Assembly (NCBI RefSeq): GCF_000285835.1
Contig: NZ_HE978602.1
Location: forward strand, 324,399-388,398
Length of the DNA: 64,000 bases
Direction of reading: 5' to 3'
From: Brevibacterium senegalense
Lineage (GTDB): Bacteria > Actinomycetota > Actinomycetes > Actinomycetales > Brevibacteriaceae
Shown here: in pieces, positions 32,783-45,816 of the stretch
Position numbering within the stretch: the first letter of the stretch is position 1
Layout of the letters: the number at the start of each line of letters is the position of its first letter
Position numbers and translations under genes: made by a program
The notes under the pieces: generated by a model
Told to the model about the DNA's origin: nothing
Seen by the model: only the letters and a program-made list of their open reading frames with translations
Databases searched by the model: none

Positions 32783-34299
32783 GCCCCACCCACACCCGGA
32801 CGACGGAACAGGACGCCACAGTGCAGGACGCGACAGTGCAGACGACGCAGCCGGCCGGTACCGGCCCGGACCAGCCCCTCACGGCGCCCGAGGTCCCGGT
32901 CGACCTGGCGCCGCTCGCTGCGGTCCTGAGCCCCGGGGCCCTCGTCGAGGACGCGGACATCATCGCCGCGCACACGCAGGACCGCGCGGTCTTCGCCCCG
33001 TCCGGGCGGGCGCGCGCCCTCATCCGGGCCCGCAGCACGGAGGATGTGCAGGAGGCCCTGCGCTTCGCGCACGAGCACCGCCTGCCGGTCATCCCGCAGG
33101 GTGCGCTCACCGGTCTGTCCGGCGGCGCGAACGGCATCGACGGCGCACTGCTGCTCAACGTCGCGCAGCTGGACGACATCCTCGACATCGACACCGTCGA
33201 GCAGACCGCGACCGTGCAGCCGGGCGTCATCAACCGGGCGCTCAAGGACGCGCTCGCCCCGCACGGCCTCGCGTACCCGCCGGATCCCGGTTCCGTCGAC
33301 ATCTCGACGATCGGCGGCAACGTCGCGACGAATGCGGGCGGCCTGTGCTGCGTCAAGTACGGCGTCACGAAGGACTACGTCCGCAGGCTCACGGTCGTCC
33401 TGGCCGACGGGTCGATCACAACGGTGGGACGCCCCACCGCGAAGGGCGTGGCGGGACTGGACCTGGCCGGCCTGTTCGTGGGCTCGGAGGGGACACTGGG
33501 CGTCGTCGTGGAGATCGTCGTCGACCTCATCCCCGCGATCCCGGACCCCATCACCGGAGTGGCGCTGTTCGATGACATCCGGGCCGCGGCGCGGACGATC
33601 ACGGAGTTCATGTCCTCCGGCGTGAGGCCGTCCCTGCTGGAGATCCTGGACGGCACGTCGATCGAGTGCATCAACGACTACGGCGACTTCGGCCTGCCGG
33701 AGGGCGCGGCGGCGATGCTGCTGGTCCAGTCCAACGGCGATGGCGTGCTGGAGAAGGCGACGAAGGACCTCGCGGAGTTCGAGCGGATCGCGCACGCGCA
33801 GGGCGCGACGGAGGTGACGATCTCCGACGATCCCGAGGATTCGGAGATGTTCATCGCCGCGCGCCGGTCTGTGGGGCACGCGCTGGAGAAGTACGCGATG
33901 AACCACGGCGGCGGCGAGCTGGTGGACGACGTCTGCCTGCCGCGGAAGGCGCTCGACGAGTTCTTCGCGCGAATGCGTGAGATCGCCCGTGAGTTCGACG
34001 TCCTCGTCGCCGTCGCGGGGCATGCGGGCGACGGGAACATGCACCCCAACGTCCTCTTCGACGCGGGCGACCCGGATTCCGTGGCGCGCGCCCAGTCCGC
34101 CTTCGACGCGATCATGGCGACGGGTCTGGAGCTGGGCGGCACGATCACCGGCGAGCACGGCGTGGGGGTGCTCAAGAAGCGGTGGCTGGCCCGGGAGCTG
34201 GACCCGGTCGCGCAGCGCCTGCACCTGGCGATCAAGCGGGAGTTCGACCCGCGGGGCGTCCTCAGCCCCGGCAAGATGCTGGGCGAGCTGAGCGCATGA
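32779..34299 (+). CDS. FAD-linked oxidase (GlcD/D-2-hydroxyacid dehydrogenase type)
   Basis: 506 aa. The PCMH FAD-binding domain (about 70-250) has VIPQGALTGLSGGAN, PPDPGSVDISTIGGNVATNAGG and GSEGTLGVV. The C-terminal FAD-oxidase domain ends with AGHAGDGNMHPNV and GEHGVGVLKKRWL, which carries the catalytic and metal-binding residues of the D-lactate/glycolate dehydrogenase group. It oxidises a D-2-hydroxyacid to a 2-oxoacid. ATGA overlaps on both sides link it to the aminotransferase and to tgt, an unusual combination. Confidence 0.9.
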   Translation: MSPTHTRTTEQDATVQDATVQTTQPAGTGPDQPLTAPEVPVDLAPLAAVLSPGALVEDADIIAAHTQDRAVFAPSGRARALIRARSTEDVQEALRFAHEHRLPVIPQGALTGLSGGANGIDGALLLNVAQLDDILDIDTVEQTATVQPGVINRALKDALAPHGLAYPPDPGSVDISTIGGNVATNAGGLCCVKYGVTKDYVRRLTVVLADGSITTVGRPTAKGVAGLDLAGLFVGSEGTLGVVVEIVVDLIPAIPDPITGVALFDDIRAAARTITEFMSSGVRPSLLEILDGTSIECINDYGDFGLPEGAAAMLLVQSNGDGVLEKATKDLAEFERIAHAQGATEVTISDDPEDSEMFIAARRSVGHALEKYAMNHGGGELVDDVCLPRKALDEFFARMREIAREFDVLVAVAGHAGDGNMHPNVLFDAGDPDSVARAQSAFDAIMATGLELGGTITGEHGVGVLKKRWLARELDPVAQRLHLAIKREFDPRGVLSPGKMLGELSA

Positions 34300-35612
34300 G
34301 CGGGGAGGCGACGGCCGCCCGGGATGGGGCGGCGGAGGCGAGCACGGCCTCGGGCGGGGTGCCGACGGCCGGGGCCACGGCCTCGGGAGGAACCGTCGCG
34401 GACCGGTCGCGGTTCGGGTTCACCGTGGGCACGCAGATGCCGGAGGGCGGGCGGACGGGCACAATCCGCACGCCGCACGGCGACATCGCGACCCCGGCCT
34501 TCATCCCCGTGGGGACGAAGGCGACGGTCAAGGCGGTCAAGCCGGAGGACGTGGACGCGCTGGGTGCTGACGCGGTCCTGGCGAACGCCTACCACCTGTT
34601 CCTGCAGCCGGGGGCGGACATCGTCGACGAGGCCGGCGGGCTGGGCGCGTTCATGAACTGGCCCGGCCCCACCTTCACGGACTCCGGCGGTTTCCAGGTC
34701 ATGAGCCTGGGTGTGGGGTCGAAGAAGGTGCTCTCGAACGAGTTCGCGGGGAAGGACCGCGCGGACCTGCAGACGGTCGCCCGCGAGGACCGGATGGCGA
34801 ACGTCGACGAGGACGGGGTCACCTTCCGCTCCCACCTCAACGGCGACATCCACCGGTTCACCCCGGAGGTGTCGATGCAGGTCCAGCACCAGCTGGGTGC
34901 GGACATCATCTTCGCGTTCGACGAGCTCACGATGCTCACGAACACGCGCCTCTACCAGGAGGAGTCCCTGGAGCGCACCCGGCGCTGGGCGGAGCGCTGT
35001 GTCGCAGAGCACGAGCGGCTGACGGTCGAGCGGTCGCACCGTCCCTATCAGGCGCTCTTCGGGGTGCTGCAGGGCGCGCAGTACGAGGATCTGCGCCGGA
35101 AGGCGGCCCGGGACCTGGGGGCGATGGACTTCGACGGGTTCGGGATCGGCGGTGCGCTGGAGAAGGAGAACCTGGGCACGATCGTGGGCTGGGTGTGCGA
35201 GGAGCTGCCGGTCGACAAGCCGCGCCACCTGCTGGGCATCAGCGAGCCGGATGATCTGTTCGCAGCGATCAAGAGGGGTGCGGACACGTTCGACTGCGTG
35301 TCGCCGTCGCGGGTGGCGCGCAACGCGGCCGTGTATTCGCGCGATGGTCGGTACAACATCTCCGGCGCCCGCTACAAGCGGGACTGGCAGCCCATCGATC
35401 CCGAATGCGGCTGCTACACGTGCGCCCACTACTCGCGCGCATATCTGCACCACCTGTGGAAGGCGAAGGAGATGCTGTTCTCCACGCTCGCGACGATCCA
35501 CAACGAGCACTTCATCGTGCAGCTCGTCGCGGACATCCGGCGCGCGATCGACGAGGGCCGGTACGAGGAGCTCGAGGCCGAGGTCATGGGCCGGTACTAC
35601 GCGAAGAGGTGA
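34296..35612 (+). CDS. tgt: tRNA-guanine transglycosylase
   Basis: Exchanges G34 for a queuine precursor in GUN-decoding tRNAs, 438 aa. Nucleophilic and base-recognition motifs are TFTDSGGFQVMSLG, FAFDEL and DCVSPSRVARN. The zinc site is Cys371, Cys373, Cys376 and His402. The start overlaps the oxidase stop (ATGA) and adds a 40-residue Ala/Gly-rich tail not seen in typical Tgt, so a later start is possible. No queuosine synthesis gene is nearby, but a YhhQ-type precursor transporter lies at 37891. Confidence 0.95.
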   Translation: MSGEATAARDGAAEASTASGGVPTAGATASGGTVADRSRFGFTVGTQMPEGGRTGTIRTPHGDIATPAFIPVGTKATVKAVKPEDVDALGADAVLANAYHLFLQPGADIVDEAGGLGAFMNWPGPTFTDSGGFQVMSLGVGSKKVLSNEFAGKDRADLQTVAREDRMANVDEDGVTFRSHLNGDIHRFTPEVSMQVQHQLGADIIFAFDELTMLTNTRLYQEESLERTRRWAERCVAEHERLTVERSHRPYQALFGVLQGAQYEDLRRKAARDLGAMDFDGFGIGGALEKENLGTIVGWVCEELPVDKPRHLLGISEPDDLFAAIKRGADTFDCVSPSRVARNAAVYSRDGRYNISGARYKRDWQPIDPECGCYTCAHYSRAYLHHLWKAKEMLFSTLATIHNEHFIVQLVADIRRAIDEGRYEELEAEVMGRYYAKR

Positions 35613-37890: not shown

Positions 37891-38604
37891 TCAGACCTTT
37901 GCGTCCGTCTCAGCGCCTCCCGGGGCGTAGGTCGTCTCGCGCGCCTTGATCCAGCCGATGACCCGGTAGGTGATCGGCATGAGCACGATCTCGACCGCGA
38001 CCTTGTAGACGAAGCCCACGATGATGTAGTTGACGAAGTCCCAGCCGGGAATGACGCCGGCGAAGGCGACGATGCAGAAGATGAGGGTGTCCGCGAACTC
38101 GCCCACGCCCGTCGAGGTGAGCAACCGCACCCACAGGTGCTTCTCGCCCATCTTCTCCTTGACCTTCACGAGCACGTACGCGTTGAGCAGCTGCCCCACG
38201 AGGTACCCGGCCAGCGAGGCCGCGACGATGCGCGGGTAGAAGCCCAGGACCGCCTCGAACGCGGACTGGTTCTCGTACCCCGGACCCGCGGGTGCCACCT
38301 GGACGAGGAAGAACACGAGCACCGCCAGCGCCTGCATCGCGAAGCCCATGAGGACCGCGCGGCGGGCGGCGCGGAAGCCGTACACCTCGCTGATGACGTC
38401 GCCCAGGATGTAGGCCAGCGGGAACAGGAACGCGCCGCCGTCGGCCACGAACGGACCGATCTCGATGACCTTCGTGGCAGAGATGTTCGAGATGAGGAAG
38501 ACGCAGCACAGCAGCGCCAGGACGTATGCGTAGAAGCGACCCCGCGTACTCGCGAAAGCAGCGGGGCCCCCAGACCGGGCTCCGGGGTCAGTGGGGTTCG
38601 ACAT
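37891..38604 (-). CDS. yhhQ: Queuosine precursor transporter (YhhQ family)
   Basis: Six-helix membrane protein, 237 aa, importing queuosine precursors (preQ0/preQ1 in E. coli). Family signature stretches are ISNISATKVIEIGPF, ADGGAFLFPLAYILGDVISEVYGF and the GEFADTLIFCIVAF helix. It starts 17 nt inside the upstream peptidase gene (stop 38588), so the two are coupled. With tgt at 34296 it supports precursor salvage rather than synthesis. Confidence 0.92.
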   Translation of the reverse strand: MSNPTDPGARSGGPAAFASTRGRFYAYVLALLCCVFLISNISATKVIEIGPFVADGGAFLFPLAYILGDVISEVYGFRAARRAVLMGFAMQALAVLVFFLVQVAPAGPGYENQSAFEAVLGFYPRIVAASLAGYLVGQLLNAYVLVKVKEKMGEKHLWVRLLTSTGVGEFADTLIFCIVAFAGVIPGWDFVNYIIVGFVYKVAVEIVLMPITYRVIGWIKARETTYAPGGAETDAKV

Positions 38605-41281
38605 CGATCTCCTGTCCGCCCGTCAGATCGACGAGCTGTGTGTATGTGAGCGGCACCATCGCCTCGACGGTGCCGCCGCCGGCCCACAGCTGCGTGTGCA
38701 GCCGCAGGTCCCGGTCGATGAAGGTGCGCAGCGGTGCCGGATGACCGGCGGGTGCGACCCCGCCCACGGGCTGACCGGTCGCGGCCAGCACCTCTTCCGG
38801 CGTCGCCCGCTTGAGCCGCCGCGCCCCGATCACGGCCGCCGTGTGCTCCGTGTCCACCCGGTGCGCGCCGGACGTCATGATAAGGACCGGCTCCTGCCGC
38901 ACCTGCGGTGCGTCTGCGGATTCGGACCCCTCCGCCGAGGCCTCGGTCGCCTCGCCGTGGCCGCCGGCCTGACCGATGCCGTGGCTGTGTCCGGGACCGT
39001 CCGCGGTGCGCGGGGCAGCGGGGGTCTCCCCGGCCTCGGCGGCGGGCTCTTCGAACTCCGCCGTGAAGACGAGCGAGTTCGCGATGGCCCCCACCTCGAC
39101 GCCGTGGTGCGCGGCGGCGGCCGCGGCCGTGGGCAGCGGCTCCGGGTGGACGATCACCCGGGAGTCGATGCCCGCGGCCCGCAGCGCGCGCTCCAGCCGG
39201 GCGTGGGCGGGATGCGCGGGTCCGGCGGGACGCGTGGGGGCCAGGCCGCGGCGGCGCAGCAGCGGCTCGACCTCGACGTCCGCGCCCAGGAACTCGCGCA
39301 GAGCGGTGAGCGGGTCGACGGAGTATCCCGGCGCCAGCACCTGCTTGCGGTAGCGGGCGCCCAGCTCCGGATCCAGCCCGCCGTGGTCCTCGAACAGCTC
39401 CGTCACCGCGGCCGCGTACTGCTCCGACCACAGGTACGAGTAGTAGCCGGAGGCGTACCCGCCCGAGAACGTGTGCGCGAAGTAGGTGGACCGGTAGCGG
39501 GGCGGGACGACCAGGTCGAAGCCGGCGGCAGACAGCACCTCGGCCTCGAAGAGGAGGACGTCCTCGATCTCCTCGCCGTCCTCCAGCGCGTGCCAGCCCA
39601 GGTCCAGCATCGCCGCGGCCAGGTACTCGAGCGTCTCGAAGCCCTGACCGAAGCCCTGGGCGTCCCGCAGCGTCTCGATGACCTCCGGGTCCAGGGCCTC
39701 GTCCGTCTCCCAGTGGCGCGCGTAGCCGGGCACCACCTGCGGGTGCAGCGCCCACATCTCGAACTGCTGCGAGGGGAACTCGACGTAGTCGCGGGGGACG
39801 GACGTGCCCGCGTGCGAGGGGTGCACGGAGTCCGCGAAGAGGCCGTGGAGGACATGGCCGAACTCGTGGAACAGCGTGATCGTCTCGTCGACGCTCAGCA
39901 GCGCGGGGCGGCCTGCGGCGGGCTTGGGCACGTTGAGCGTGAGCGTCGTGATGGGATGCAGTCCGGTCAGGCGCGAGCCGGTCACCAGCTCGTCCATCCA
40001 CGCGCCGCCGGACTTGCCGGTGCGGGCGTACGGGTCGATGAGGACCAGGCCCAGGGGGCGGCCGCGGTCCTGCACCTCGTACACGCGCACGTCTTCGTGC
40101 CAGCCGGACAGGTCGTCGCGGACGGCGAAGGCGAGTCCGTAGAGGGCCGAGGTCGTTGCGAAGACGCCGTCGGTCAGCACCTGCTCGAACTCGAAGTGGG
40201 CGGCGACGTGCGCGCTGTCCAGCTCGAACGCCTCCGTGCGGTAGCGCTCCCACAGGTGCAGGACGTCCGCGCGCTCCAGCGGCTGCTCCTCATCGAGGTC
40301 GAAGTAGGCGCGGACCCTGCGGGCCTCGCGCGCAAACTGCGTGAGCGCCGGGTCGATGAGCGAGCGCAGGAGGCCGCCGGCGGACTCGACGTCCGGGGCG
40401 ACCTGATCGTCGATCGAGTACTGCGCGAACGTCTGGAAGCCCAGCACCGCCGCGAGAGCGGCGCGCAGGGCCGTGAGGTCCGTGATGAGCTCGCGGGTGT
40501 CGCCGGGACCGCCGGAGCTGCCGCGGCCCATCGACAGGGCGAGCAGCTGTCTGCGTGTCTGCGGATCGGTCAGGCGGGTGAGTGCGTCCTGCTGCGTCGT
40601 GTTGGTGAGCGGCAGGCGCAGACCCTCGACGCCGTGCTCCTGCGCATCCGCGCGGGCTGCCGCGAGCGCGTCCTCGTCCAGACCGGCCAGCGCGTCTTCG
40701 TCCGGGACGACCAGGGCGCGGGCGGAGGCCTCCCGCAGGAGCAGCTGTCCGAACTCCGTCTCGATCCGATCGATCTCCGTCGCGATCGCGGACACGCGCC
40801 GGCGGTCCTCGTCCTGCAAGCGCACGCCCGCGCGGACGAAGTCCTGCAGCAGGAGGTCGTGCAGCCGGCGGTCCTCGGGGATCAGGTCGTTCGTGGGCAC
40901 GGACTGGAGGAGCTCGTAGAGGTCCTGGTCCAGCTCGATGCCCAGGCGCAGGGAGGTGAGCTGGGCCCACACACTCGCGGCGGCCTCGGCGACGGCGTCC
41001 GTCTGCACGTTCGACTCGAGGACGCGCACCAGCGCGGACAGGGAGTCCGCTGGCTGGAGAGCGCGCTCCAGCGCGAGCGTGACGGTGTGGAACGCAGGGT
41101 CCTCCGCGGACGACAGGATGTCCGCGACCCCGTCCTGCGCGCGGCGGACCGCCAGGCCGGCGGCCTCGATGAGGTGGTCGGGGGTGATCGCCTGGAAATC
41201 CGGCAGGGTGAGGTCCGGTGGGCCTTCCACGAACTCCCACGCCGGGTTCGGCGCGGACGGGACGTGCGGGGGCTGGATCAC
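38588..41281 (-). CDS. Fusion: M3 family oligopeptidase plus YbaK/ProX-type aminoacyl-tRNA deacylase domain
   Basis: One 897-aa reading frame. Residues 1-680 are a complete M3 peptidase; the zinc motif HEFGH is at 472-476 in TLFHEFGHVLHGLFADS, with FPSQQFEMW and FAHTFSGGYASGYYSYLWSEQ downstream. Residues about 690-897 match YbaK-type editing domains (RVIVHPEPLPT, GAIANSLVF, RRLKRATPEEV, TGQPVGGVAPAGH, FIDRDL, LWAGGG). A His/Gly- and Ala/Glu-rich insert lies inside the second domain at about 740-800. A cytosolic peptide-degrading enzyme with tRNA-editing capacity is implied but unproven. The upstream boundary is divergent from an MFS gene. Confidence 0.88.
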   Translation of the reverse strand: MIQPPHVPSAPNPAWEFVEGPPDLTLPDFQAITPDHLIEAAGLAVRRAQDGVADILSSAEDPAFHTVTLALERALQPADSLSALVRVLESNVQTDAVAEAAASVWAQLTSLRLGIELDQDLYELLQSVPTNDLIPEDRRLHDLLLQDFVRAGVRLQDEDRRRVSAIATEIDRIETEFGQLLLREASARALVVPDEDALAGLDEDALAAARADAQEHGVEGLRLPLTNTTQQDALTRLTDPQTRRQLLALSMGRGSSGGPGDTRELITDLTALRAALAAVLGFQTFAQYSIDDQVAPDVESAGGLLRSLIDPALTQFAREARRVRAYFDLDEEQPLERADVLHLWERYRTEAFELDSAHVAAHFEFEQVLTDGVFATTSALYGLAFAVRDDLSGWHEDVRVYEVQDRGRPLGLVLIDPYARTGKSGGAWMDELVTGSRLTGLHPITTLTLNVPKPAAGRPALLSVDETITLFHEFGHVLHGLFADSVHPSHAGTSVPRDYVEFPSQQFEMWALHPQVVPGYARHWETDEALDPEVIETLRDAQGFGQGFETLEYLAAAMLDLGWHALEDGEEIEDVLLFEAEVLSAAGFDLVVPPRYRSTYFAHTFSGGYASGYYSYLWSEQYAAAVTELFEDHGGLDPELGARYRKQVLAPGYSVDPLTALREFLGADVEVEPLLRRRGLAPTRPAGPAHPAHARLERALRAAGIDSRVIVHPEPLPTAAAAAAHHGVEVGAIANSLVFTAEFEEPAAEAGETPAAPRTADGPGHSHGIGQAGGHGEATEASAEGSESADAPQVRQEPVLIMTSGAHRVDTEHTAAVIGARRLKRATPEEVLAATGQPVGGVAPAGHPAPLRTFIDRDLRLHTQLWAGGGTVEAMVPLTYTQLVDLTGGQEIDVEPH

Positions 41282-41357: not shown

Positions 41358-42602
41358 GTGAGTGAGTTCGAAGGCTACCTGCGCGGTGATCCGCGTGCCA
41401 GACGCATCGAGGTCGGTCTTCTCATGGCAGGCCTGGCGACCTTCACTCTCCTCTACGCCACACAGGCGATTCTGCCGTACTTCACACGCGACTACGGAAT
41501 CTCCCCCTCCGAGGCCGCCCTGTCCGTGTCCGCGGCCACAGCCGGACTGGGCGTGGGCCTGGTCGTCGCGGTGCCCGTGTCGGAGCGGATCGGCCGGGTC
41601 CGGCTCATCCGGTGGTCGCTGCTCATCGCGTCCGTGCTGGCGCTCGTCGTCGCGCTCCTGCCGTCGTGGCCGCTGTTCCTGGCGGCGCGCTTCATCATGG
41701 GCTTCGTGCTGGCGGGGTTGCCCGCGACGGCCGCGGTCTACCTCAAGGAGGAGATCCACCGCAGCTACGTGACGGCGGCGACGGGCATCTACATCTTCGG
41801 CACGACCCTGGGCGGTCTGGCCGGTCGCGTGGTCTCCGCCCTCACGATCGAGGTGGCGCACCGGTGGGGGTACAGCGGCACCGGGGTGCTGAGCGTGTCC
41901 CACCTGGCGCTGCTGGTCACGGCGGTGCTGGCGGTGGGCTGCGCGATCGGGTGCTGGCTGCTGCTCCCGGAGTCGCGCGGCTTCGTCCCGCACTTCGACA
42001 CCCCCGTCGAGCTGCTGCGGAAGTTCGGCCGTGCCTTCACCGACCCGGTCCTCGTGGGTCTCTACGTGATCGGCGGGCTGGGGATGGGCACGTTCGTGGG
42101 CGCCTTCAACTCGCTGGCCTTCAGGCTGGAGCAGGCGCCCTACCTGCTGTCCGTGGGCGCGATGGGCCTCATCTACTTCGTCTACCCGGTCGCCGGAGTG
42201 GGATCGGTCGTCGCGGGCCGGCTGGGGAGCCGGTACAGTCTGCGCGCCGTCATGCCGTACGGTCCGCTCGTCGCGATCGTGGGGATCCTCCTCATGTCGC
42301 TCACCCACCTCGCCTGGGTGGTGCTGGGGATCGCGATCCTGTCCGTGGGCTTCTTCATCGCGCACTCGCTGGCGTCCGCGTGGGTGGCGCAGCGGGCCAG
42401 CGCGTCCGTGGGGGTGCCCGCGCAGGCGATGTCGATGTACATGCTCGTCTACTACGCGGGCTCGTCGATCAACGGCAATCTGGCGCCGCTGGCCTGGGAG
42501 CTGCGCGGCTGGGGCGGCGTCACGCTGCTGAGCCTCGTCTTCATGGCGATCGCGTTCGTCATCGCCGTCGCGCTCGCCCGCACCCGTCCCGTCGTGACGT
42601 GA
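41358..42602 (+). CDS. MFS transporter (YnfM-like)
   Basis: 414-aa twelve-helix transporter, with ATQAILPYFTRDYGISPSEA at helix 1 and VPVSERIGRVRLIR as the loop 2-3 motif. It resembles inner-membrane exporters of the YnfM group; substrate unknown. GTG 41358 lies 6 nt after TAGGCT and lacks a ribosome site. It is divergent from the M3-YbaK fusion with a 76-nt gap. Confidence 0.85.
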   Translation: MSEFEGYLRGDPRARRIEVGLLMAGLATFTLLYATQAILPYFTRDYGISPSEAALSVSAATAGLGVGLVVAVPVSERIGRVRLIRWSLLIASVLALVVALLPSWPLFLAARFIMGFVLAGLPATAAVYLKEEIHRSYVTAATGIYIFGTTLGGLAGRVVSALTIEVAHRWGYSGTGVLSVSHLALLVTAVLAVGCAIGCWLLLPESRGFVPHFDTPVELLRKFGRAFTDPVLVGLYVIGGLGMGTFVGAFNSLAFRLEQAPYLLSVGAMGLIYFVYPVAGVGSVVAGRLGSRYSLRAVMPYGPLVAIVGILLMSLTHLAWVVLGIAILSVGFFIAHSLASAWVAQRASASVGVPAQAMSMYMLVYYAGSSINGNLAPLAWELRGWGGVTLLSLVFMAIAFVIAVALARTRPVVT

Positions 42603-43642: not shown

Positions 43643-45238
43643 TCAGTGCTGGTGACCGGTGCCCTCCAGCGCTGCCAGTGCGTCCTGCGCGCTCACGTCG
43701 ACGGTGAAATGGCCCATCATGCCGTCGTCCTCGTGGAGCATGAGGTGGCAGTGGAACATGTACGGCAGGTTCGAATGGTCGTCCGGGTGCGCGGGGAAGA
43801 TGACCGCCAGCCGCATGTCCCGCTGCGGCGGCGTGTAGACGGTGTCCTTCCAGCCCGCCATCTCCGGTGGCGGCGCCTGCCCGCCGATGTCGAGGATCCG
43901 GAACTGCGCGTTGTGGATGTGGAAGTTGTGCGGTGAGGAGTCCAGGTTGCTCACCTGCCAGATCTCCGGCTGGTGGGAGGCGGCCTCCAGGTCGATCCGC
44001 CCCATGTCCATCGACTTCCCGTTGATCTGCCGCCCGCGCAGGTTCATCTGCCGCTGCTGACCGCGGTCGGCGACCTCCGGGAACGTGGCCAGCACCGCCG
44101 GCAGGCCCAGGTCCGCGATCGAGGCCGGGGTCGGCTCCGACACCTCCGCACCCGCCCGCTCCAGCCGGAGGATCGTGAACTCGTCCTCCCCGCCCGCGGC
44201 CTGGGAGTCCGCGACGTTGCCCAGGTCCGGCTGCGAGGAGATGAGGGTGACGCCCTCGTCGGGCACCTCGAGGAGAACCTCTGCGCGCTCGGCGGGGGAG
44301 AGGCTGAGCGCCTCGACCTCCACAGGCGCCTCGAGCAGCCCGCCGTCGGAGCCGATGACCGTGAGCGGTGCGCCGGACTCCAGGCGCAGTCCGTACGAGC
44401 GGGCCTGGGAGCCGTTGAGCAGTCGCAGTCGCAGCACGCGTCGATCGGTCGTGTGCACGGCACCCACGACGCCGTTCGTCACGACGGTCTGCCCCAGCAG
44501 CCCCACCTCGGAGTTGAAGTTGTGGCCCAGCATCTCGCCGTCCTCCGTCAGGCGCATGTCCTGGATGATGACCGGGATGTCGTCCACGCCGTACTCGTGG
44601 GGCAGGGCGGCGAGGACTCCAGCGGCGGGGGAGGGGGCCTCGGCGGCGGAGGCCATCCCGTCCGCGGGGGCGGAGCCGGGAGCGTGCCCGTCCGCGTCGT
44701 CCAGGATCAGCATGCCGGCCAGGCCGCGGCGCACCTGCTGGGCGGTGATCTCGTGCGGATGCGGATGGTACCAGAGGGTCGTGGCGGGCTGGTCCGGGGT
44801 GAACGCGACGCTGCGGGTCTCGCCGGGCAGGATCGGGTCGTGGGGGCCGCCGTCCGCGTGGGCGGGGACCAGGAGGCCGTGCCAGTGGACGGTCGTCTCC
44901 TCGTCCGTGTCGTTCGTGACGACGGCCTCGACGGGACGTCCGCGCTGCAGGCGGATCGTGGGCCCCAGGTAGTCGCCGTTGTAGCCCCACGTGTCCGTCA
45001 TGACGTCCGGGATGAACTCGCGGGTGCCGCGGGCGGCGGTGAGGGCGAAGCGGCCGTCCGCGTCCGGCTCCAGGAGCGGCGGGATGGGCAGCGGGGTGCC
45101 GTGGGCAGTGACGGGGACCTCGGTCTCCGAGGAGCACGAGGCGAGCACGGGCGCCAGGGCGGCGACGCTCAGGAGGGCGCCGCCGGCGCGCAGGAGGCCC
45201 CGGCGGTCGAGCGTAGGAGCGGGGAGACGGGGCGACAT
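43643..45238 (-). CDS. Multicopper oxidase, Tat-type lipoprotein (CueO/CotA group)
   Basis: 531-aa copper oxidase exported folded: twin-arginine motif DRRGLLRAGG with lipobox VLASC. Copper ligands are readable: TVHWHGL, LWYHPHPHE, HNFHIHNAQF and MFHCHLMLHEDDGMM (type 1 Cys-His-Met region). It probably oxidises Cu(I) or phenolic/metal substrates outside the membrane. ATG 45238 has no ribosome site but GATAAT lies 7 nt upstream, so it is likely leaderless; the 64-codon extension is rejected. It is divergent from a DUF779 gene. Confidence 0.92.
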   Translation of the reverse strand: MSPRLPAPTLDRRGLLRAGGALLSVAALAPVLASCSSETEVPVTAHGTPLPIPPLLEPDADGRFALTAARGTREFIPDVMTDTWGYNGDYLGPTIRLQRGRPVEAVVTNDTDEETTVHWHGLLVPAHADGGPHDPILPGETRSVAFTPDQPATTLWYHPHPHEITAQQVRRGLAGMLILDDADGHAPGSAPADGMASAAEAPSPAAGVLAALPHEYGVDDIPVIIQDMRLTEDGEMLGHNFNSEVGLLGQTVVTNGVVGAVHTTDRRVLRLRLLNGSQARSYGLRLESGAPLTVIGSDGGLLEAPVEVEALSLSPAERAEVLLEVPDEGVTLISSQPDLGNVADSQAAGGEDEFTILRLERAGAEVSEPTPASIADLGLPAVLATFPEVADRGQQRQMNLRGRQINGKSMDMGRIDLEAASHQPEIWQVSNLDSSPHNFHIHNAQFRILDIGGQAPPPEMAGWKDTVYTPPQRDMRLAVIFPAHPDDHSNLPYMFHCHLMLHEDDGMMGHFTVDVSAQDALAALEGTGHQH

Positions 45239-45245
45239 GCGATCG

Positions 45246-45251
45246 ATTATC
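45246..45251 (-). promoter_or_regulatory. -10 box for leaderless multicopper oxidase
   Basis: GATAAT on the minus strand, one base from the TATAAT consensus, 7 nt before ATG 45238. Confidence 0.6.
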
Positions 45252-45324
45252 GCGGTCGACGCCGGTGCGGGCACGCGGGCGGGGCGCGGTGAGACGCACG
45301 GGACCGGTGGGCAGACGGTTCCCA

Positions 45325-45353
45325 TTGTGACGCCGCGCACCCGCGCGTACGCT
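45325..45353 (+). promoter_or_regulatory. Promoter of the DUF779 gene
   Basis: TTGTGA (45325-45330), 17-nt spacer, TACGCT (45348-45353). The leader carries AGGAGG before ATG 45409. Confidence 0.6.
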
Positions 45354-45408
45354 GGAGGGAGACGTCGACGGAGACGGAGCGCTCCGCCGCCCGCGCACAG
45401 GAGGAGCC

Positions 45409-45816
45409 ATGACCGTTCACACCGCCGCACTCGAGGCCGCCCCGACGATCGACGGGGAGGACTTCTCCCGCGTCGCGTTCACACAGGAGGCCATCGACCT
45501 GCTGGTGCGGCTCATCGACCGCAACGGCCCCGTCATGTTCCACCAGTCCGGCGGATGCTGCGACGGCTCCTCGCCCATGTGCTATCCGGAGGGCGACTTC
45601 CTCACCGGTGACGCGGACGTGAAGATGGGGACCTTCGAGGTGCCCCTGCCGGACGGGTCGACCAGCAGCGTCGACTTCTGGATGTCCGTCGAGCAGTTCG
45701 AGTACTGGAAGCACACGCATCTGACGATCGACGCGGTCGACGGGCGCGGCGCCGGATTCAGCCTCGAGGGGCCGGAGGGCAAGCGGTTCCTCACCCGTTC
45801 GCGGCTGTTCGAGTGA
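45409..45816 (+). CDS. DUF779 protein
   Basis: 135-aa protein of the DUF779 family, usually encoded beside acetaldehyde dehydrogenase genes; function unknown. The signature HQSGGCCDGSSPMCYPEGDF with three Cys suggests metal binding. No aldehyde dehydrogenase is adjacent here; instead it is divergent from a multicopper oxidase. AGGAGG lies directly before the ATG. Confidence 0.88.
   Translation: MTVHTAALEAAPTIDGEDFSRVAFTQEAIDLLVRLIDRNGPVMFHQSGGCCDGSSPMCYPEGDFLTGDADVKMGTFEVPLPDGSTSSVDFWMSVEQFEYWKHTHLTIDAVDGRGAGFSLEGPEGKRFLTRSRLFE

Follow-up and report, generated by a model that had tools for sequence, protein, structure and literature searches.

A Dcp-type peptidase fused to a tRNA-editing-fold domain with asparagine at the conserved lysine site in Brevibacterium

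Introduction

Within a stretch of 64,000 nucleotides of Brevibacterium senegalense (contig NZ_HE978602.1; the whole stretch is hereafter called the window), one gene encodes both a zinc peptidase of family M3 and a domain of the kind that clears mischarged amino acids from tRNA. Why do two such modules share a chain, and does the second still perform the task that its annotation implies? A reading of the DNA made from the letters alone, hereafter the sequence-only reading, had taken the combination as a sign that amino-acid recycling and translation quality are linked. I examine here the reality of the fusion, the identity of each half, the origin of the join and the neighbourhood in which it lies. 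The features of the locus are collected in Table 1.

Table 1. Coordinates within the window of the fusion gene, its parts and its neighbours
Feature	Position	Strand	Basis or remark
Fusion gene, Dcp-type M3 peptidase plus Asn-type INS-superfamily domain	38588..41281	(-)	897 aa, GTG start
M3 peptidyl-dipeptidase module, residues 24-680	39242..41212	(-)	phmmer to 5L43 and 1Y79; Pfam core 234-679; fold match
HEFGH zinc motif, residues 472-476	39854..39868	(-)	invariant in 26 homologues
Third zinc ligand, E501	39779-39781	(-)	numbering by alignment with K-26-DCP
INS-fold domain part 1, residues 691-743	39053..39211	(-)	AF2 model; alignment; omega 0.04-0.33
Asn735 (AAC), site of the superfamily's strictly conserved Lys	39077..39079	(-)	alignment to 2CX5; Asn/Ser conserved in clade
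His/Ala/Glu-rich disordered insert, residues 744-795	38897..39052	(-)	only in the window clade of fusions
INS-fold domain part 2, residues 796-897, with SGAHRVD (His807) and GGVAP (840-844)	38591..38896	(-)	PF04073 at residues 796-886
YhhQ-type queuosine-precursor transporter	37891..38604	(-)	PF02592; TIGR00697; overlaps the fusion by 17 nt
tRNA-guanine transglycosylase Tgt, convergent	34296..35612	(+)	TIGR00430, 435 bits; in conserved Brevibacteriaceae cluster
Divergent MFS transporter	41358..42602	(+)	syntenic in many Brevibacteriaceae

Results and Discussion

A single reading frame

In a Pfam search, the 897-residue chain yielded two domains and no third. Peptidase_M3 was matched with E 4e-93 and tRNA_edit with E 1e-17, each well clear of its gathering score. 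The GTG start is preceded by AGGAG. The fusion reads as one coding frame, since third-codon-position GC remains at 90-98% over the entire chain, the insert included, and the peptidase and INS-fold cores both evolve under purifying selection, as judged from omega. Among the 57 Brevibacterium genomes surveyed, 46 carry one frame, 8 carry two genes, 2 are without the domain and 1 has the gene cut by a contig end; the fusion is therefore widely kept in the genus. The HMM search and the retention survey that the sequence-only reading had proposed as checks thus agree with its claim of a single chain joining an M3 peptidase to a tRNA-editing domain, and the frameshift or assembly error that it had named as grounds for refutation is excluded, since the identical single frame recurs in 46 of the 57 genomes. 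Long shadow frames do exist in genomes this rich in GC, as at locus L099 and others, which lends some footing to the idea that the fusion is itself an assembly error or a shadow frame. The frame shared by 46 genomes, the constancy of third-position GC and the purifying selection on both cores refute that idea, and its probability is negligible.

Long frames at six other loci (L099, L100, L102, L103, L108 and L111) were considered as further fusions and rejected, their upstream part being a shadow frame according to codon-position GC; Pfam returned no match on these upstream parts. An Rfam search of the window gave zero matches, and a search for a promoter-like site likewise found none.

The peptidase half

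Among solved structures, the peptidase half is matched best by K-26-DCP (5L43, E 4e-141) and E. coli Dcp (1Y79, E 5e-129) in phmmer searches, with oligopeptidase A and thimet oligopeptidase scoring well behind. Its predicted fold gives TM-scores, normalised on the target, of 0.93 to K-26-DCP and 0.92 to E. coli Dcp, and among the NCBIfam models Dcp scores 497 bits, short of the 944 that the narrow PRK10280 equivalog requires, versus 270 for OpdA. OpdA, thimet and neurolysin are all more distant from the half than Dcp is, which makes it a peptidase of the Dcp type. The sequence-only reading had described a complete zinc peptidase from the HEFGH motif at residues 472-476, and the description was accurate: across 26 homologues, the zinc and catalytic residues H472, E473, H476 and E501 and the ligand-contacting residues R497, Y609 and Y616 are invariant, their roles being transferred from PMC5157764 through the K-26-DCP alignment. 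Because these catalytic and ligand residues are conserved, the M3 half should be an active peptidyl-dipeptidase. K-26-DCP and E. coli Dcp, both of family M3, match the whole of the peptidase half including every one of these residues, but they stop after the peptidase, whereas the Brevibacterium chain adds a second folded domain.

The second domain is an INS homologue nearest to ProX

The second domain has the INS/YbaK fold, with a match to PF04073 and a Z-score of 23.9 to 2Z0K, and it retains a GXXXP loop in the form GGVAP. Thermus thermophilus ProX is its nearest relative by sequence (2CX5, E 2e-19) and by structure (2Z0K, rmsd 1.5 over 143 residues). A review shows this protein (TTHA1699, 2CX5/2Z0K) as ProXp-x (PMC11295145), which makes ProXp-x the closest characterised relative. 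The sequence-only reading had called the domain YbaK-type. As regards the tRNA-editing fold this was right; as regards the family it needs correction, the relation to YbaK being a distant one, since the fusion scores only 33.9 bits against TIGR00011, the YbaK equivalog, where the cut-off is 153. The stand-alone relatives, at 46-57 bits, are also far under that cut-off.

Comparison with individual relatives defines the domain further. ProX of T. thermophilus shares with it the fold, the GXXXP loop and the overall order of motifs, but its key site is occupied by Lys where the Brevibacterium domain has Asn, its SGKNRLD stands in place of SGAHRVD, and it has neither the long insert nor the fused peptidase. 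The Cys-tRNA(Pro) deacylase YbaK (1DBX, 2DXA) belongs to the same superfamily and has the same fold (Z about 20), but identity is 18% and the Lys is absent from the Brevibacterium domain. MSMEG_5671 of Mycobacterium smegmatis is a stand-alone editing-fold protein of 159 residues from an actinomycete, unfused, unlike the Brevibacterium domain; a Cys-tRNA(Pro) deacylase role has been proposed for it from a 2CX5-based model only (PMC4721953).

Loss of the superfamily lysine

In the alignment, the key motif reads GQIVKSLVF in 2CX5 and GAIANSLVF in the Brevibacterium domain. The Lys that positions A76 in the INS superfamily has thus given way to Asn735, and Asn or Ser stands at this site throughout the clade. 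One paper describes this Lys as 'strictly conserved' and, at another point, as 'nearly universally conserved'; its mutation impairs every member tested (PMC10164551). On the evidence of its residues, the Brevibacterium domain is an INS homologue by descent and fold and not a canonical editing enzyme. As the Lys regarded in the literature as indispensable is absent both from the domain and from its actinomycete relatives, the annotated job is not to be assumed.

Asn occupies the Lys site in all Brevibacteriaceae copies examined, and Asn or Ser does so in most copies across the order; among close relatives from other parts of the phylum sample, the residue is Lys. Confinement of the Asn form to the order was ruled out by a contig search, which found the motif in Mycobacterium, Streptomyces, Nocardiopsis, Kribbella, Micromonospora and others; since the search patterns contained Asn and were therefore biased to it, these matches give a range and not a proportion. 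In the tree, the Asn/Ser sequences form one actinomycete-wide clade with 100/99 support, in which MSMEG_5671 presumably has its place. Other conserved motifs of the clade have changed along with the Lys site, SGxNRVD to SGxHRVD, GGTPP to GGVAP, and V to A directly ahead of the site itself, and the Lys site, the His and GGVAP would face each other in the pocket. A literature search, in which few subscription journals were covered, found no paper on an M3-YbaK fusion or on the Asn clade.

Some genomes of family f14 (L137, L139, L140, L141, L142) contain second paralogues in which the Lys site is Thr, Ala or Arg and the GXXXP loop is altered to GSASP; these further-derived copies nest inside the Asn clade.

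The genome that encodes the fusion keeps a Lys-bearing YbaK (L001) and a ProRS (L003) whose INS domain reads DTLKNVV, with the Lys retained, so that the two known errors on tRNA(Pro), Ala and Cys, are already dealt with. This bears on the possibility that the fusion is a canonical bifunctional enzyme, whose INS half would deacylate Ala/Abu-tRNA or Cys-tRNA(Pro), peptide turnover being coupled to translation quality control by the fusion. Such an enzyme would account for the preserved fold and GXXXP loop, for the strong purifying selection and for the retention of the fusion in most of the genus. It is nonetheless unlikely, given Asn in place of the Lys reported to be essential in all tested members (PMC10164551), the presence of ProRS-INS and YbaK for the same two errors, and stand-alone relatives devoid of any peptidase link.

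A second possibility, drawn by analogy, is that the Asn-type domain has ceased to be a deacylase and is a ligand-binding module that would recognise an aminoacyl group, a nucleotide or a tRNA 3' end and thereby regulate or position the peptidase. SadB of Pseudomonas (9QZK), which with 3MEM is among the fold matches of the INS half, provides a precedent for a YbaK-like domain within a multidomain protein: that domain is needed for function, and SadB binds c-di-GMP (PMC6543031). SadB differs in its HDOD partner, its role in motility signalling and its arrangement. The loss of Lys over a whole actinomycete-wide clade, and the onward drift of paralogues to T, A or R, are what a converted binding module might be expected to display, but the active-site loop is invariant, the coordinated K to N and N to H changes suit an altered chemistry equally, and the stand-alone proteins carry no second domain on which to act. 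I therefore give this proposal little weight.

Origin of the fusion

The unfused species differ in the spacing of the two genes. The peptidase and editing-domain genes are 2.6-4.2 kb apart in G057 and G059 and form adjacent or overlapping frames in G058 and G010, while in G008, G023, G030 and G011 the stop of one and the start of the other overlap or nearly touch. In genomes G020, G031 and G039, as at loci L016, L128 and L132, the M3 and editing genes share one reading frame, interrupted by a single TGA between them. The Brevibacterium series, from separate through overlapping and single-stop to fused, preserves gene fusion in its stages, as a compact record left by nature. Among the loci sampled outside Brevibacteriaceae, there was neither a fusion nor a peptidase neighbour. 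On the M3 tree, the fused state requires two changes, and one change is possible in just 4% of bootstrap trees, which suggests that two independent fusions probably occurred within Brevibacterium; a single origin followed by re-splitting may be compatible with the well-supported branches of the M3 tree alone.

The explanation that I favour, with a probability of roughly 0.6, is that stop-loss fusion of two co-transcribed housekeeping genes tethered a working peptidyl-dipeptidase to a Lys-less domain with an aminoacyl-tRNA pocket. The ancestor would have had two neighbouring genes with overlapping or nearly touching stop and start, as relatives still do, and loss of the stop, or a small change of frame, would have joined them. 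The M3 half would trim C-terminal dipeptides off small intracellular peptides in the manner of Dcp. The INS-fold half, its GXXXP loop kept, would still offer a pocket for the aminoacyl-tRNA 3' end, one whose chemistry has presumably been remodelled by the replacement of Lys and Asn with Asn and His; on account of this remodelling, the half may be a binder, or an aminoacyl-tRNA deacylase of low activity or altered specificity. Fusion would fix 1:1 expression of two independent modules, and exchange of substrate between the peptidase and INS sites is neither needed for the explanation nor supported. The gradient of gene states, the stop-start junctions and the stand-alone relatives without M3 neighbours argue for the favoured explanation, as do the domain matches, the nearest structures, the invariant M3 catalytic residues, the contrast between constrained cores and a drifting, disordered insert, the Asn clade with its co-varying motif residues, and the Lys-bearing YbaK and ProRS-INS encoded elsewhere in the genome. 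Against simple tethering, a join that arose twice and persists in most of the genus may itself be useful.

A bolder proposal is that the Asn/His actinomycete clade constitutes a distinct INS functional class, either an aminoacyl-ester hydrolase that does without Lys and acts on another substrate or a sensor derived from an editing domain, and that its repeated fusion to Dcp in Brevibacterium reflects a real link to dipeptide or amino-acid recycling; I hold this to be possible but doubtful. What is at stake extends beyond Brevibacterium, as the Lys has been lost clade-wide among tRNA-editing-fold proteins of many actinomycetes, including mycobacteria and some streptomycetes: either a tRNA-editing role can be assumed for these proteins or the family has a second catalytic solution. 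Taken alone, the fusion is a lineage-specific curiosity; for the study of tRNA editing, the surprise that can be put to the test is the Lys-less clade from which its second half comes.

A drifting insert

A His/Ala/Glu-rich insert had been noticed inside the editing domain, and it is indeed there, at residues 744-795, between two strands of the INS fold in the AF2 model. It is predicted to be disordered (pLDDT <50 at residues 748-789) and is absent from the other group of fusions. Its omega of 0.26-1.09, together with many indels, compares with 0.04-0.33 for the INS cores and 0.13-0.40 for the peptidase: the insert is drifting while both cores stay under purifying selection. In two genomes (G034, locus L011, and G054, locus L009), the low-complexity insert has grown to well over 100 residues with the frame still open.

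The queuosine neighbourhood

The downstream gene encodes a transporter that matches TIGR00697 with 119 bits (cut-off 51). Its ATG at 38604 falls within the final codons of the fusion gene, with AGGAG ahead of it at 38609-38613, so that the 17-nt overlap with a queuosine-precursor transporter asserted by the sequence-only reading is real. Synteny defines a Brevibacteriaceae cluster composed of M3, the editing domain, YhhQ, a convergent Tgt and often a divergent MFS transporter. Such conservation could be taken to mean that the fusion and its neighbours form a queuosine-linked translation module of YhhQ, Tgt and the editing domain, the more so as in two genomes (G022 and G025; loci L126 and L127) neither the editing domain nor YhhQ is present at the locus and Tgt is absent genome-wide. 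In the rest of the order, however, Tgt is present in 7 of 63 Asn-type genomes versus 55 of 120 others (raw counts that ignore phylogeny), and stand-alone copies of the domain are not near YhhQ or Tgt. Because Tgt is in this sense anti-associated with the domain across the order, a shared queuosine function was rejected, a queuosine-linked module is most improbable, and the queuosine link is one of local synteny only. The postulated functional link between amino-acid recycling and translation quality is likewise doubtful: the Lys is lost, relatives in other actinomycetes occur alone and away from peptidase genes, and the queuosine genes do not co-occur with the domain across the order.

G022 and G025 belong to small-genome Brevibacterium species, in which the M3 gene stays in spite of the joint loss. 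A three-domain multicopper oxidase, identified by Pfam match at 43643-45430 (-), has remained close to the fusion in the window clade, as judged from synteny.
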